Shown: positions 18,521-26,829, counted from the stretch's first letter. The stretch: DNA of 64,000 nt from Candidatus Methanohalarchaeum thermophilum (GCA_001914405.1 MSDW01000001.1:310001-374000), one strand, 5' to 3'. Notes: a model not told the origin generated them from the letters alone. Made by a program: numbers and translations.

Positions 18521-19474
18521 TCACCAAAAAATGTGGACTATACTTTCTCCTTCAGCAACTGCTCTTTCCCTCCTTAGATATAGGATTCTCCCTGAGATTG
18601 GAGAATAGATTTCCTCTTTTTTACCGAGGATCTTTTCAACTATGCCAATAACTTCTCCTTCTTCAATGTACTCGCCTAACTCTACATTTGACTTGAAGAA
18701 CCCTGAGAAAGGAGAACCTATTTTTTCTTTATTAACGAAGACATCTTCATCTCTTTTATCTATAGAGCCTTTAAGTAATTTAGTCGCCTTAAGATAATTT
18801 TTTAATCCATCTATAGTTTTATCGACATATTCGTAGTTAATATTTCTTCCTCTGCCTATTTCTAATAAAATGGATCTAATTCCCTGGCTTTCCGAAGAAG
18901 AAACCAGAGTGTTACCCCAATTTTTAGCTACATAGATATAAGGTAATATCAGAGAAGCTTCAGATATTCTTTTCCTATTTGTCACTGCAGCATGAGGCAG
19001 GTACTCACCGGGGCCACCAGTGTGCACATCAACTACATAATCCATTTTTGAGAATATGTTTTCAAACAAGAGCTTACCTAGTCTTTCCGTTGGTTTTCTA
19101 TAGTTCTTACTTAAATAAGTCCTATTCAGGTCTATACTATCGATACTGGAAACCCTTGATTTCTGATTAAAAGCCAGAGGATTTAAAATAGGTAAGACCA
19201 CTAAATTACCGGTTACTTTTTTCTTATCTATCTGCTTAAAGATTTTTTGAGAAATATATGTGCCGTTCCATTCTATACCATGCTGCCCCCCAACAATACA
19301 AACAGTTGGGCCTTCTTCTCTAGATATAACTCCACAAGGAAGACTTAAATTTGATCCATCCCCTAAGTCAAATGTCCTAAGCCTAAAACTTTCTTTACCA
19401 CTGTATTCGCCAAGTTCAAAATCTTTAACATCCAAGGAATCGTTTTCCATACGCATATATATCAAAGGATCCAA
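18521..19474 (-). CDS. AspA/AstE-type zinc hydrolase (M14-like)
   Basis: 317 aa of the succinylglutamate desuccinylase/aspartoacylase family, which removes acyl groups from amino acids or cuts amide bonds with one zinc ion. Ligand motifs are GGQHGIEWNG (His and Glu) and VVDVHTGGPGEYLP (His). The C-terminal part EYIEEGEVIGIVEKIL then IYSPISGRILYLR is the usual beta-barrel. It is the last gene of a three-gene operon after the RtcB-like and ATP-grasp genes, 15 bp from the latter. An ATP-grasp ligase next to an AspA-like hydrolase suggests making and trimming of amide or peptide bonds. The substrate is unknown. Confidence 0.85.
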   Translation of the reverse strand: MDPLIYMRMENDSLDVKDFELGEYSGKESFRLRTFDLGDGSNLSLPCGVISREEGPTVCIVGGQHGIEWNGTYISQKIFKQIDKKKVTGNLVVLPILNPLAFNQKSRVSSIDSIDLNRTYLSKNYRKPTERLGKLLFENIFSKMDYVVDVHTGGPGEYLPHAAVTNRKRISEASLILPYIYVAKNWGNTLVSSSESQGIRSILLEIGRGRNINYEYVDKTIDGLKNYLKATKLLKGSIDKRDEDVFVNKEKIGSPFSGFFKSNVELGEYIEEGEVIGIVEKILGKKEEIYSPISGRILYLRRERAVAEGESIVHIFW

Positions 19475-19489
19475 AAGATCCAGGTGAAA

Positions 19490-20809
19490 TTAATCTTTTA
19501 TGTAATTGAATGATTTCTTGTAATTGTCCACTGTTTTTTTAAACAAAATAGTAGAAGCCTTCAGTAGGTTGGTAACTTCTTCTTCAGATAAACCAAGTTT
19601 TTCAAAATTATCTTTGTTAAACGGAATTCCTCTATTAATATCTAATCCTTCGTAGCCAGATAAATTGACAACAAAACTTTCTTTCTTGTACTCTTCTGTT
19701 TTTGGAGCTAAAGCTGCTCTTCCTAGGCCACCGCAGGGAATTAATTCTTCATCTAGTCTAGTGACATATATCCTTAGATCAAAGTTTCTATTGCTTCCAA
19801 GCCAATAAACGGGCTTAGAATTAACTTTTTCTGTGATAGTGTAAGGAAAACCCTCTTTTTTATAACTAAATTCTTCGCTAAACTCATCCAAGCTCTTGTT
19901 TATTTTACTTAGAGCATTTTTCTGGTTTTTAATTACTTCTATCCCCCTTCCACCACTCCCTCTTGCAGGCTTAATAACTAAATCACTTTTGTCTAAATTT
20001 TTTTCTACGATATCAATTAACTCCTGTTTGTCGTGAACTCTCCAAAACTCTAAAGGCTCTATATTAAATTCTTTTAACTTATCACGATTTTCTTTAACTA
20101 CATTATAGATAGAAGCTTTTTCATCAGTTATAGGATATATGGGATTAGCTAAAGTTATATTAATTTCGTTTTCTAATATTTTTTCAGTATATGAAGGTAT
20201 TCTTCTAGCTAATCCATCACCGACCATCACATCAATCTTTTTACCTTTAAAGTGAGGTACTCCATTCTTCAACTCTATGTAATTCAGTACATTGGGATAA
20301 GAACCGAGAACGATACCTCCTTTTTCAATGTCTTCTGATGGCAATTTAGTTTCAAGACCCGTTTCGTCAGAAAAATAATCAGATAAAATCAGTTTCTCAT
20401 AAAAAAGCTTATCATTCTTCGGGTAAGCAATTAAAACCAAAGGACAAGGTTTTTGGACAAAATTTATTGTACTAATTAGTCCCTTGTAACATCTTTTCCA
20501 ACAAAAAGGGGTTAAAGAAGATAATCCTCTACTACTACCACCATTTGCTTCTATTACTCTGAATATATTTTCTTCATCCTTTTTTTCGACCATAAAATCA
20601 ACAGAACCAAGGAAAAATTTATCATTTGAAATTTTATTTTTGCTATTTTCTCTAAGATAACTTACGCTATCTTCGTACAGCTTTCTTATTAAATTGGGAT
20701 CCTGTTTCTCTCTTATTTCCTTAACAGAAATTTGTTTGAAACCGAGAAATTTAGAGTAATTAATTATATCTTCAATTTTCCCCGGCCGGATTTCTTTCAC
20801 TGAAAGCAC
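19490..20809 (-). CDS. ATP-grasp ligase-like protein
   Basis: 439 aa. The C-terminal half is an ATP-grasp domain: LVIKPARGSGGRGIEVI (ATP-binding lysine and glycine-rich loop), ITEKVNSKPVYW, FDLRIYVTRLDEE and IPCGGLGRAAL. ATP-grasp enzymes join a carboxylate to an amine or thiol through an acyl phosphate. The N-terminal 200 residues are unfamiliar, with RVIEANGGSSRGLSSLTPFC as a notable block. The start is a GTG immediately after the upstream TAG (TAG-GTG), so it is tightly coupled to the RtcB-like gene. The partner substrate cannot be read from sequence. Confidence 0.8.
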   Translation of the reverse strand: MLSVKEIRPGKIEDIINYSKFLGFKQISVKEIREKQDPNLIRKLYEDSVSYLRENSKNKISNDKFFLGSVDFMVEKKDEENIFRVIEANGGSSRGLSSLTPFCWKRCYKGLISTINFVQKPCPLVLIAYPKNDKLFYEKLILSDYFSDETGLETKLPSEDIEKGGIVLGSYPNVLNYIELKNGVPHFKGKKIDVMVGDGLARRIPSYTEKILENEINITLANPIYPITDEKASIYNVVKENRDKLKEFNIEPLEFWRVHDKQELIDIVEKNLDKSDLVIKPARGSGGRGIEVIKNQKNALSKINKSLDEFSEEFSYKKEGFPYTITEKVNSKPVYWLGSNRNFDLRIYVTRLDEELIPCGGLGRAALAPKTEEYKKESFVVNLSGYEGLDINRGIPFNKDNFEKLGLSEEEVTNLLKASTILFKKTVDNYKKSFNYIKD

Positions 20810-21937
20810 CTAGATCTTGATTGTATACCTTTGTTCCAACTTAACTACAGCCTCACCAAGTCCAAATTCCCTTACCTTATCTAGAACCTTAGTCCCTCTA
20901 TAATCAAATGGGATATTTGAAGGATTTGAAAGAACATAATCCCTATCATTCGGCTTAATCGCAAAAAATCTATTTCCTTCCTTTATAATAGGCTTAATAT
21001 TGTAATCTGATTCACTTAAGCTGAGTTTATATCCGCCTCCATGTGGAAGAAGATTAAGATCAACTGCTTTATTGCTATATAGCTCTTCACCTGCTTTAGG
21101 AATCTCACTTGAACTATTAGGCCTTATTAGGTAAACAGGTAACCTAGAATTGAATGAAAGAGGAAAAAGCCCTTCTTGAGCTTCATATAAACCCAATCGG
21201 ATCTCATTTTTGTCGAAAAGCCCTTGATGAGTTGGATTCGATACTACCTCCAGATCTGGAAGTATTTCTTCTGCTACTAAGCGCCTTTTTTTAATTGAAA
21301 ACTCCTCAAGCTCTTTATACTCCCTGAAATATCTATCAACGAGATCTCCTTCAAGAGTGAGAATTTCTCCAAAAGCCGTGTCAACCCACCTTCCACCTCT
21401 ATCTTGCCACTTATCAAAATCGTACATTAAGTGTTTTTTTTCAGAAGCAGAAGTATGTAACAAAGCAAAAACTTCTCCCTCTTCAACTTCATCTGTCTTC
21501 GATTCAGTTGCTTCATATACCTCTACAAAGTGATTACTTTTACCAAAATCCCATATAACCTCAATATCATCTATTTTTAGATTCCTATCTCTTAGCTCTA
21601 CAATATTACTTACAACATCATCGTAAGAAGGCACTTCATCTAGTCGAACTAAAATCATCCCACAAGAATTAGGCTTCATTTCTGGAAAAGCAAAGCCCTC
21701 AGGCCACCTAATAACACAACCGTAACCAAAACCACTCTTCCATCTCTCAAAGTTCCTAGTAATCCCTGCATCCGGCCCAAACACACAAGTAGGCGATTTA
21801 TTTATCCTTTTATCTTTTAAAACTGAATCTATTTTAGCTAACCCAAATTTAGTGTTCGATATACTCAGCCTAGAACTCAAATCATCAACTGCAAACGAAT
21901 AAATATTATCTTCCACCTCTTTTGGGATATCTATCAA
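20810..21937 (-). CDS. Divergent RtcB-like protein
   Basis: 375 aa, first gene of the operon. It follows the landmark order of the RNA ligase RtcB: PNSCGMILVRL (Cys92, as in DINCGVR), SNHFVEVYE (His136, as in GNHFLEI), FALLHTSASE (His161, as in HSGSRG), SNPTHQG (His237), PLSFNSRLPVYLI (as in PGSMGTRSYI) and LPHGGGYKLS (His299, as in HGAGR, the guanylated His). The spacing between these residues resembles RtcB. The Asp three residues before the Cys is Pro here, and the RKGA motif is replaced by EIRLGLYEAQEG. I infer an RtcB fold with some metal sites kept but possibly altered chemistry. Coupled to ATP-grasp and AspA-like genes. Confidence 0.62.
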   Translation of the reverse strand: MIDIPKEVEDNIYSFAVDDLSSRLSISNTKFGLAKIDSVLKDKRINKSPTCVFGPDAGITRNFERWKSGFGYGCVIRWPEGFAFPEMKPNSCGMILVRLDEVPSYDDVVSNIVELRDRNLKIDDIEVIWDFGKSNHFVEVYEATESKTDEVEEGEVFALLHTSASEKKHLMYDFDKWQDRGGRWVDTAFGEILTLEGDLVDRYFREYKELEEFSIKKRRLVAEEILPDLEVVSNPTHQGLFDKNEIRLGLYEAQEGLFPLSFNSRLPVYLIRPNSSSEIPKAGEELYSNKAVDLNLLPHGGGYKLSLSESDYNIKPIIKEGNRFFAIKPNDRDYVLSNPSNIPFDYRGTKVLDKVREFGLGEAVVKLEQRYTIKI

Positions 21938-21997
21938 ATTGAACCCCCTATTTTTCCAAACATATTTTGATTTAAGTAAAGAGATAAGAAATAACTT

Positions 21998-22843
21998 ATG
22001 GAGGAGAATAGAGTGACTTTAGGCGTAGGATTAGCTATATATTACTCCAAAAAATACGATTTATATGAGAAAATTAAACATATAGGCGAATCTGATATAC
22101 AACAGGTTGAATTATACTGTGGCAGTCCTTTTTTAAAAAAATGGAATACCAGCGATTACATTGAAGAGATAAAGAAAATAAAAGAAGAATTAAATACACA
22201 GGATTTAAATTCATCCGTTCACTCACCACACTACGACCTAAATATCTCTACATGGAATTCTGGAGTTAGAAAAGTAGTTTTAGAAGAAATAAAAAAGACA
22301 TTTAAGGCTGCAAATCTGATAGGATCCAATTTAGTAGTTGTTCATCCTGGTTATGTTCCTTCGAGGAAGTTTTCGAGAGAAAAGGCTCTACAAAAAATGA
22401 TCGACAACCTGAGGGAACTGGTTGATGTAGCTGAAAATTTTGATATAATGATAGGTCTTGAAAACTTAAGTAGACACTCAAAGGCTCTGGGAGTGCTTCC
22501 GAGGGAACTAAATATGGTTTTAGATGAGGTTGATTCAAAGAACTTGGGAATTACTTTTGACGTAGCACATGCTAATACTATTTCATCTATGTCCCCTGTT
22601 GAATACATCCAGGAAATAGGAGATAGAATCATTCATGTTCATTTAAGCGATAATAGAGGAGAAGATGAACACCTGCCTATTGGGGTAGGTGACATAGATT
22701 TTAGGGACGTTTTAGCTGAGTTAAAAAAATTCGATTACAGTGGAGACTACATAATAGAAGGATGGTTACCTAGACAGGATTATAAAGACTTTTTCGTTAA
22801 GAAAAGCTATAAAATAATAAAAAACCACTTAAAAAATATTTAA
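21998..22843 (+). CDS. TIM-barrel sugar isomerase/AP endonuclease-like protein
   Basis: 281 aa of the xylose isomerase-like/endonuclease IV superfamily. Metal-site motifs are HSPHYDLNIS, VVVHPGYVPS, IGLENLSRH, GITFDVAHAN, RIIHVHLSDNRGEDEHLPIGVGDIDF and YIIEGW. The family includes AP endonucleases and sugar isomerases or epimerases, and the sequence alone does not separate them. It is divergent from the RtcB-like operon with about 60 bp between them, so they may share a promoter region. A paralogue lies at 34796-35578. Confidence 0.82.
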   Translation: MEENRVTLGVGLAIYYSKKYDLYEKIKHIGESDIQQVELYCGSPFLKKWNTSDYIEEIKKIKEELNTQDLNSSVHSPHYDLNISTWNSGVRKVVLEEIKKTFKAANLIGSNLVVVHPGYVPSRKFSREKALQKMIDNLRELVDVAENFDIMIGLENLSRHSKALGVLPRELNMVLDEVDSKNLGITFDVAHANTISSMSPVEYIQEIGDRIIHVHLSDNRGEDEHLPIGVGDIDFRDVLAELKKFDYSGDYIIEGWLPRQDYKDFFVKKSYKIIKNHLKNI

Positions 22844-22857
22844 AAAAAATATTTGAA

Positions 22858-23475
22858 TTATCTTGAATCAACTCGACCTACTCTTAGTAGTGATTTTACC
22901 GGGACACCGTCAATTGTGTCCATTCCTTTCTTATCCAGTAAGACTACTGCTGCTAATGGCTCAGCTCCAGCTGAATTAAGAGAAGAAACTGTTTCTCTCA
23001 TAGTATTACCCGTTGTTATTATGTCATCAACTATAACACATCTTTTTCCACTTGGATCAGCAAAATTAGGACTAACAACACCCTTTTCAAGGTTCTTCAT
23101 CTTTTTACTTGGCTCCCATCTATGCTTACGAGGAAGTATTACACTCAATTCCGCTTCGAGTTCTTCTGCAATAGGATAAGCAAGAGGTATACCACTAATA
23201 GCAATACCCGCTATAACTTCTACATCTTCTGTTATTTCCTTTATCGAATCCAACATAGCCCTTGATATGTACTTAAGTCTCTTTGAATTACTTCCAACCT
23301 CATCCCATTCTATAAAGAAATCTCTTGGAGCCTTTTCTGTTTCCTCCTTAGAACTCCTTGATATAAGCCACTTAGCCGTCTCCTTAGAAACATTAAGCTC
23401 GTCAGCTATACTACCAGTTCTTAAACCTTTTTCTTTGAGTTTTTTAGCTTTTTGAACAAGTTCATTTAAACTCAT
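22858..23475 (-). CDS. gfcR: GfcR-like HTH-PRTase transcriptional regulator
   Basis: An N-terminal helix-turn-helix (LRTGSIADELNVSKETAKWLISR) is fused to a type I phosphoribosyltransferase domain with the PRPP loop CVIVDDIITTGNTMRE. This is the architecture of GfcR, first known from haloarchaea as a PRTase-like regulator of sugar metabolism and often annotated as orotate phosphoribosyltransferase-like. About 205 aa. I prefer the ATG at 23475 (MSLNELVQKAKKL). It ends 15 bp from the convergent TIM-barrel gene. Confidence 0.87.
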   Translation of the reverse strand: MSLNELVQKAKKLKEKGLRTGSIADELNVSKETAKWLISRSSKEETEKAPRDFFIEWDEVGSNSKRLKYISRAMLDSIKEITEDVEVIAGIAISGIPLAYPIAEELEAELSVILPRKHRWEPSKKMKNLEKGVVSPNFADPSGKRCVIVDDIITTGNTMRETVSSLNSAGAEPLAAVVLLDKKGMDTIDGVPVKSLLRVGRVDSR

Positions 23476-23535
23476 TATTTTCACTTACATTAATAAGAAC
23501 TCATTAAATCAGATATCATTCAAAATCCTTTAAAT

Positions 23536-24085: not shown

Positions 24086-24506
24086 TTTAACTTTGTTTGG
24101 TGAGAAATCCCTTTCCTCAAATCTCTGATTTTAGGTAGGGGATGAATTAACACAGGGTATTTGTATTTGGGTGGCCAATGGGGTTTTTTTTGAGAGGTTC
24201 TTAGTCCAATAGTCGAGTTTGGGTGGGCAAGCACTTGAGTGCAGGGCTCTATCGCGATAGATATGTGGTGGGGTTGGGAACGGGGCTTTGTGTGATCGAG
24301 TCCAAAACCAAGGCACATAGTAGTGATGGACATGGGTGCCTGTCCTGGAAAACAGCATAAGTCCTTGTGGGACCTGCAATATCTTGGCAGACCGTGTCTG
24401 CCTCTGTTAGACCATTCGGTAACAAGGCACCAAATCTTGGATACTGGTCTTGTAAATGGATGGAAGCACCTTCCAAAATCTTTGATTAGGTAGGTGAGGA
24501 GGTTAC
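24086..24506 (+). mobile_element. Family C element, divergent copy
   Basis: The LE is TTTAACTTTGTTTGGTGAGA plus a CAAATCTCTGATTTTAGG hairpin. The RE carries ATGGATGGAAGCACC and a hairpin followed by GGTAGGTGAGGAGGTTAC. Inside are the hairpins GCACTTGAGTGC and CTATCGCGATAG (CGCA in other copies, a loop change). It lies between the nob1 promoter and the histone gene. Confidence 0.72.
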
Positions 24507-25263: not shown

Positions 25264-26366
25264 AAAAACCATCGTTTGCAGGATACTGGAACCCATAAAA
25301 AGAAAAAAAAGGATTACTAATCAAAGAATTATGCAACGCCAACGGATACATACGTAGAATAACAAATGACCTGTATTCTGCGACTAAGCAAGCGATGGAC
25401 GAATACACACAAGAAGATAACTAAAAAAATAATATACCTATCCATTGTTCCTAAGAAATGACACATTTAGAGTAGAGAAAGCGAGAGAAACAGAAGGAAT
25501 TTAACTATGGGCTAAAGTACCAATAAATGGTGTCTGGGGCGGGATTTGGGTTCCAATATAAACCACACAAACCAATAAAAGAAGAATACGAAATTAAGGA
25601 TTCTAAGGTTGTGTGGAAACCGTATGGTTTTGAGTTGCATCTTTCAGTTGGTTTTGGAGTAGAGCCACAGGTTCCTAGAAACATCTTTGCTGTTGATTTG
25701 GGTGGAAGGGTTATGGCTGCGGCTGTGTCCACTTCCGATAACGGGAACCCTAAGCCTATATGGCAGAGATGTTAGAGGGATTAGAAGACACTACGCTTAC
25801 CTAAGAAAACAGTTACAGGAAATTGGAGAATCAAAAGTGAAAGAAGGTTAGGGACAAGGAGAGTAGAGTTGTTGAAGACACCTTACATAAGATATCTAAA
25901 AGAATTGTCATGTTGGTAGAGCTGATAGGGAGGATGCGTTGATTGTTTTGGGTGACCTCAAGGGGTTTAGGCAACGAAGAGACAGGTAGGGGGAAACGAA
26001 TGAATCGAATATCGAACACAATGCCTTATTACAAACTAATCAAGATGATTACTTACAAGGCCAAGGAAAAAGGGAATAAGAGTAATCAAGATAAGTGAGT
26101 GTCTTAGTTTGGTGACTTGTCATTGTTGTGGTAGCGAGAACATAGATAGACCTACACAGGGTAGATTTGATTGCAATATCTGTGGTTTAGAGAACTATAA
26201 TGCTGATTTGAATGGAGCTAAAAACATATTATATAGGTCTCTCGACTATTTGGCTGGAGACGGGGCTGTTGTGAACCAGCCCCTAACCAAGGCATCAATA
26301 GCGAAACAAGATTATGATACAGGAAAAGTCCTTGGAAACTCCTTCCTAACAAGAGAAGCGAGTTAG
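25254..26366 (+). pseudogene. tnpB: TnpB (IS1341-type) pseudogene
   Basis: TnpB is the RNA-guided nuclease of IS200/IS605 elements and an ancestor of Cas12. Fragments are in order but in different frames: start MKIEKTIVCRILEPIKRK (25254), RuvC-I FAVDLGGR (around 25690), RuvC-II region LIVLGDLKGF (around 25940), zinc finger CHCCG...CNICG and RuvC-III YNADLNGAKNI (from 26109). The end is AVVNQPLTKASIAKQDYDTG. Several frameshifts and stops interrupt the middle, so it cannot make an active nuclease. Total span fits an original of about 400 aa. Confidence 0.88.
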
Positions 26367-26420: not shown

Positions 26421-26829
26421 TTTAACTTTAGTGCCGAGAAATTTCCTTTCTTTCTTTGATAGGAGGGAGGATGGATCGGCATAGGGTATTTGGGGGGCGA
26501 TGGGGTTTTTGTTGGGAGGTTTCTAGCGTATAAGTCGAGTTTGGGTGGGCAAGCACTTGAGTGCAGGGCTCTATCGCAATAGATGTGTGGTGGGGTTGGG
26601 GATGGGGGTCCTCTGTGATCGAGTCCATGACCAAGGCGTATGATGGCGATGGATATGGCTGAAGTACTGGAAACCAGTATTTAAGTCCTTGTGGGATCTG
26701 CAATGTTTGGTAGACTGTGTCTGCCTTTGTTAGACCATTTGGTAACAAGGTATCAAATCTTGGATGCTGGTTTTGTGAATGGATGGAAGAAGCTTCCTAA
26801 ATCTTTGATTAGGTAGGGGAGAAAGTCAC
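26421..26829 (+). mobile_element. Family C element, young copy 1
   Basis: About 409 bp. The LE is TTTAACTTTAGTGCCGAGAA and the RE is GTGAATGGATGGAAGAAGC, hairpin TCCTAAATCTTTGATTAGG, GGGAGAAAGTCAC. I found one mismatch against the copy at 31298-31706. Hairpins include GCACTTGAGTGC and TACTGGAAACCAGTA. Confidence 0.82.

Follow-up and report, generated by a model that had tools for sequence, protein, structure and literature searches.

A distant RtcB-superfamily protein in an operon with a permuted ATP-grasp protein and an AspA-type hydrolase in Candidatus Methanohalarchaeum thermophilum

An operon of Candidatus Methanohalarchaeum thermophilum places an RtcB-like gene directly before genes for an ATP-grasp protein and an AspA-type hydrolase, which raises the question of whether the three enzymes serve one pathway and what an RtcB fold would contribute to it. 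All three genes lie on the minus strand of the 64,000-nucleotide stretch of DNA analysed here (hereafter named the window). The first gene, RTCBL (21937–20810), has a TTG start and a TAG stop and encodes a 375-residue protein with a predicted RtcB fold. It is followed by GRASP (20809–19490), a 439-codon ORF for a putative divergent circularly permuted type-2 ATP-grasp protein, and by ASPA (19474–18521), a 317-codon ORF with a TTG start encoding an AspA/AstE/DoeB-type zinc amidohydrolase. The TAG of RTCBL runs directly into a GTG of GRASP, and GRASP and ASPA are 15 bp apart; the ORFs, coordinates and spacing were as given in the initial annotation, which had described three tightly packed genes. 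At the RTCBL/GRASP junction (ATCTAGGTGCTTTCAGTG, 20798–20816, minus strand), the TAG is overlapped by a Shine–Dalgarno-like AGGTG, with candidate GTG starts at 20809 and 20800. GRASP probably begins at the second GTG, because the AGGTG upstream of it gives the better Shine–Dalgarno arrangement.

Searched as a single sequence, RTCBL had no Pfam match over the cut-off (the best was SepF, E = 0.064), no NCBIfam match and no PDB match; no PHROG family matched it either, and PADLOC had no match for RTCBL, GRASP or ASPA. The RtcB family model PF01139 did not match the window copy, and matched 3 of 20 members weakly (best E = 0.062) without reaching the curated cut-off, although it was the commonest sub-threshold family among the RTCBL homologues searched. 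An AlphaFold2 model of RTCBL was then built with 20 homologues (pLDDT 85.6, pTM 0.86) and compared with the PDB using Foldseek. All 13 matches with E ≤ 1e-3 were RtcB, the best being 4dwq (E = 1.7e-10, probability 1.00), and the first non-RtcB protein appeared at E = 1.2e-2; TM values against RtcB were moderate (0.5–0.58) and the rmsd was large. In a viral structure library, the sole match with E ≤ 1e-3 was an RtcB ligase (E = 6e-13). Profile comparisons gave an E-value of 8e-4 between RTCBL and RtcB (hhalign), and the RTCBL profile scored 20/20 real RtcBs above 20/20 reversed ones. RtcBs were also its best matches among PDB sequences (E = 0.05), and in whole genomes it picked RtcB-sized frames, which are candidate RtcBs (E = 2.5e-4 to 8e-4), over profile positions 142–253, the same stretch as in the PDB matches. 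The divergent RtcB fold proposed for this protein was thus confirmed at the level of the predicted structure, with strong PDB matches to RtcB only. Both family and fold are well supported, and RTCBL represents a very distant, uncatalogued family of the RtcB superfamily. It shares with RtcB (PF01139) the predicted fold, a putative counterpart of the Cys/His metal set, the equivalent of the guanylylated histidine and the motif order NHF, HxG, HGxG and C-terminal lysine. It differs in having ~13% identity in the structural alignment, in lying under the Pfam cut-off, in a length of mostly 375–417 residues compared with ~480 for RtcB, and in coexisting with a canonical RtcB in most carrier genomes.

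The conserved residues were compared across 24 RTCBL members. Cys92, His136, His161 and His299 are invariant, as are Asn135, Asp56, Arg218 and Tyr303, whereas His237 is conserved in 23 members and position 374 is lysine in 21. The five Cys and His residues that had been reported as kept are therefore present in the window protein and, with one exception for His237, throughout the family. The reported lack of the RtcB aspartate also held, as the position of RtcB Asp95 is occupied by proline in 24/24 members. The arginine that follows the guanylylated histidine of RtcB is replaced by tyrosine in every member, so that the His299 motif reads HGGGY or HGAGY, compared with HGAGR containing the guanylylated His404 in RtcB. 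In a joint alignment, His136, Glu139, His161, His299 and Lys374 of RTCBL corresponded to His204, Glu207, His235, His403 and Lys479 of the RtcB of the same genome. Motif order, conservation and fold are the basis for pairing Cys92 with Cys98 and His237 with His329; the automatic alignment did not recover these two matches. Lys374 is the counterpart of Lys480 of Pyrococcus horikoshii RtcB, a residue with an active-site role. In the P. horikoshii enzyme, the residues named as part of the active site include His203, His234 and His404; the metal bound by Cys98, His234 and His329 contacts the α-phosphate, and that bound by Asp95, Cys98 and His203 contacts the γ-phosphate (PMC10630183). Judged from these correspondences, Cys92, His136, His161 and His237 are candidate metal ligands of RTCBL and His299 is the candidate nucleotidylated residue. 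The loss of the aspartate, the change of arginine into tyrosine and the different partner genes together suggest that RTCBL has a substrate or chemistry other than the standard ligation of 3'-phosphate and 5'-hydroxyl RNA ends.

The second protein had been described as an ATP-grasp ligase with an unfamiliar N-terminal half. The ATP-grasp assignment stood, and the best tblastn match was an annotated circularly permuted type-2 ATP-grasp protein (32% identity over 168 residues). With hhalign, residues 216–385 of GRASP matched the last third, the ATP-binding part, of seven such proteins (E = 5e-5), whereas the score against PF04174 was below the cut-off (E = 0.12; 11.8 bits compared with 23.1). 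A Mg-binding/catalytic motif, VDFMV...EANGG, was read by eye at residues 70–91 with its ExN at 87–89, and it precedes the ATP-binding loop KPARGSGGRG (280–289) and DLR (344–346), which is the permuted order. Thus GRASP is most likely a divergent circularly permuted type-2 ATP-grasp protein, and its N-terminal half probably appeared unfamiliar because the permutation places the catalytic lobe there; this motif order ruled out an ordinary RimK-type ligase. GRASP resembles PF04174 and its relatives in carrying the catalytic ExN N-terminally and the Lys/Gly loop and DLR C-terminally, but falls below the Pfam cut-off and is without the alpha-E and transglutaminase neighbours. Its single-sequence AlphaFold2 model had a pLDDT of 34. 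No full-length relative was found in 197 genomes of the phylum or in the other RTCBL carriers (~225 genomes in total), the latter yielding two weak partial matches. For ASPA, the proposed assignment to AspA/AstE-type zinc hydrolases was borne out by PF24827, the AstE/AspA catalytic domain (E = 1.3e-24; 87.3 bits compared with a cut-off of 25). The motifs HGIE (residue 65), DVHTGG (149) and LLEIGRG (203) are intact and a C-terminal β domain is present, confirming from its sequence an intact AspA/AstE/DoeB-type zinc hydrolase. ASPA is like aspartoacylase and DoeB, the N-acetyl-diaminobutyrate deacetylase, in its catalytic domain and its HGxE, DxH and ExG motifs, but its score against the DoeB model (E = 2e-23) is far below the equivalog cut-off. 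An ATP-grasp ligase adjoins an AspA-type hydrolase elsewhere too, for example in a zinc protease–rimK–aspA operon of Salinivibrio, although RimK there is a non-permuted ATP-grasp protein and no RtcB-fold protein is present.

The gene neighbourhoods did not agree with a conserved three-gene pathway. Neither GRASP nor ASPA partners were found near RTCBL at any of the 23 other RTCBL loci, so the trio was kept together in no other genome examined. The conserved trio was rejected on this ground and on the lack of a full-length GRASP relative. Thus, of the new pathway that the initial annotation had proposed, the RtcB fold and the ligase and hydrolase assignments stood, and conservation of the trio did not. 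Since the partners are absent at the other loci, the functional link between the three genes rests on their packing in one genome, and the operon may be a real lineage-specific pathway. The recurrent neighbour of RTCBL is instead an HD phosphohydrolase of ~215 residues (PF01966; nearest named model PRK10119, YedJ/PRK10119-like), which adjoins RTCBL in 8/24 loci of both bacteria and archaea (L006, L009, L010, L012, L016, L017, L022 and L086), in some with a 4-bp overlap. Six genomes with a strong copy of this HD subfamily (E < 1e-90) were tested; each had a single copy, beside RTCBL, and their next HD proteins scored E = 1e-20 or worse. No HD protein of this kind was found in the window genome. 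The RTCBL–HD pairing is a stronger conserved association than the window trio and, as the strongest counter-hint, points to nucleotide or RNA metabolism or RNA-end processing rather than amide chemistry. Among the texts searched, we found no description of an RtcB–HD or RtcB–ATP-grasp association. Pyruvate kinase genes overlap or directly precede the RTCBL/HD genes at L013 (8523–9959) and L086 (7995–9329), but were rejected as partners, being seen at these two Woesearchaeota/Nanoarchaeota loci only.

RTCBL is rare and patchy, with a frequency of ~1% in three large genome samples. Three genomes of the same phylum and 19 loci in genome contigs yielded homologues with ~30–37% identity, and more were detected by profile. 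The archaeal carriers are Bathyarchaeota, Woesearchaeota/Nanoarchaeota, Prometheoarchaeum and a Methanocellales-labelled family, and the bacterial ones are Spirochaetales, a Deltaproteobacteria/Myxococcota MAG and Armatimonadota. The window copy stands far outside the rest of the family, with an end branch of 3.53 compared with a median of 0.13 and a best identity of 35%. A separate canonical RtcB is encoded in the window genome and in 16 of the 19 other carriers, indicating that RTCBL is an extra protein and not a substitute for RtcB. No homologue was found in plasmids, in viral contigs or in phages (the phage query being a Woesearchaeota homologue), and a phage, plasmid or defence origin was rejected on these results together with those for PHROG and PADLOC. 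Decayed remnants occur in two genomes of one family whose other species hold intact copies, one with several stops (G043:C5:7455–8437; L047 and L049–L053) and one a short fragment (G035:C65:22833–22955; L048), and RTCBL seems to be undergoing loss in this family.

What, then, would RTCBL do in the operon? We give about even chances to RTCBL being a new RtcB-superfamily family of metal- and NTP-dependent phospho- or nucleotidyl-transferases that was recruited into a lineage-specific amide-tailoring operon. We infer that RTCBL is probably such a transferase, and that all three enzymes would act in one amide-tailoring pathway into which it was recruited in this lineage. RTCBL would bind at least one divalent metal, through Cys92, His161 and His237, together with an NTP, and His299 would form a phosphoryl- or nucleotidyl-histidine from which the group is passed to an acceptor. 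GRASP would use ATP to activate a carboxylate and couple it to an amine; the product, or a precursor, would be deacylated by ASPA; and RTCBL would add or process a phospho or nucleotidyl group on the same molecule. To our knowledge, the RtcB fold and its histidine-GMP chemistry have been described only for the joining, and capping, of nucleic-acid ends. A bolder version, which we hold tentatively and consider rather unlikely, is that the histidine–nucleotide chemistry now serves a substrate other than RNA, with RTCBL activating or capping a small molecule or peptide that GRASP assembles and ASPA trims; in other lineages, RTCBL and the HD phosphohydrolase would act together on a related phospho or nucleotidyl intermediate.

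A different explanation, possible although on the doubtful side, is that RTCBL heals or seals RNA ends with altered specificity, with the HD protein trimming phosphates or nucleotides elsewhere and GRASP and ASPA being incidental. The preserved fold and His/Cys set and the dedicated HD phosphohydrolase at a third of the loci favour it, and RtcB paralogues with specialized RNA targets are known: RtcB2, an RtcB ligase whose described target is cleaved 16S rRNA (PMC9223846), resembles RTCBL in being an additional RtcB paralogue whose operon partner is not RtcA. However, PrfH, the partner of RtcB2, was not seen recurring near RTCBL, no RNA-processing gene recurred beside RTCBL in the surveyed loci, and the metal ligand Asp95 and the arginine after the guanylylated histidine are invariably lost. 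These same losses could be read another way. With Cys92, His136, His161 and His237 kept while the second-metal aspartate and the arginine are gone, RTCBL might have retained the metal site alone and be a metallohydrolase or phosphatase that forms no covalent nucleotide intermediate, and since the Asp95 metal contacts the γ-phosphate in RtcB (PMC10630183), loss of the aspartate could weaken the use of triphosphate. This we regard as improbable: the HG(G/A)G histidine and the C-terminal lysine, conserved as described above, both match nucleotidylation residues. Least probable by far is that the TAG at 20810–20812 is read as pyrrolysine, giving a single protein of 815 residues. The two ORFs share a frame and are separated by this TAG alone, and the two PylRS/tRNAPyl pairs of the host species, strain HMET1 (PMC9071458), would allow such decoding. 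Read-through is nevertheless unlikely, because all RTCBL homologues end at this point, next to the C-terminal RtcB lysine, because the AGGTG and a GTG start overlap the TAG, and because TAG is the stop of 9 of the 47 long ORFs in the window and thus an ordinary stop here. RTCBL offers a concrete enzyme to assay, and a separate family that has the RtcB core, an HD partner of its own and a thin spread across archaea, Asgard among them, and several phyla of bacteria would be a comparison point for the evolution of RtcB chemistry.

Finally, we analysed the flanks of the operon. RTCBL is separated by 60 bp (21938–21997) from a divergent TIM-barrel gene on the plus strand (21998–22843), and this intergenic region likely holds the operon promoter. 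Promoter and terminator scans around the operon gave nothing clearly above shuffled sequences, the promoter scan being of the σ70 type and uninformative for archaea. No close orthologue of the TIM-barrel gene was found in the sister genome, and therefore an empty site could not be defined by synteny. Downstream of ASPA, at the 3' end of the operon, lies a convergent AN1-zinc-finger/rhomboid gene. A GfcR-type orotate phosphoribosyltransferase-like regulator is encoded near the operon at 22858–23484 (NF002620, E = 1.7e-74). Further away, 24167–24506 and 26489–26829 form direct repeats with three matched stretches of 69–123 nt (74–87% identical) at a spacing of ~2.32 kb. Between them lies a broken transposase-like gene that includes a Cas12f1-like/TnpB zinc-ribbon piece (26109–26366), and the repeats and the transposase remnant constitute a decayed mobile element ~2–5 kb from the operon.
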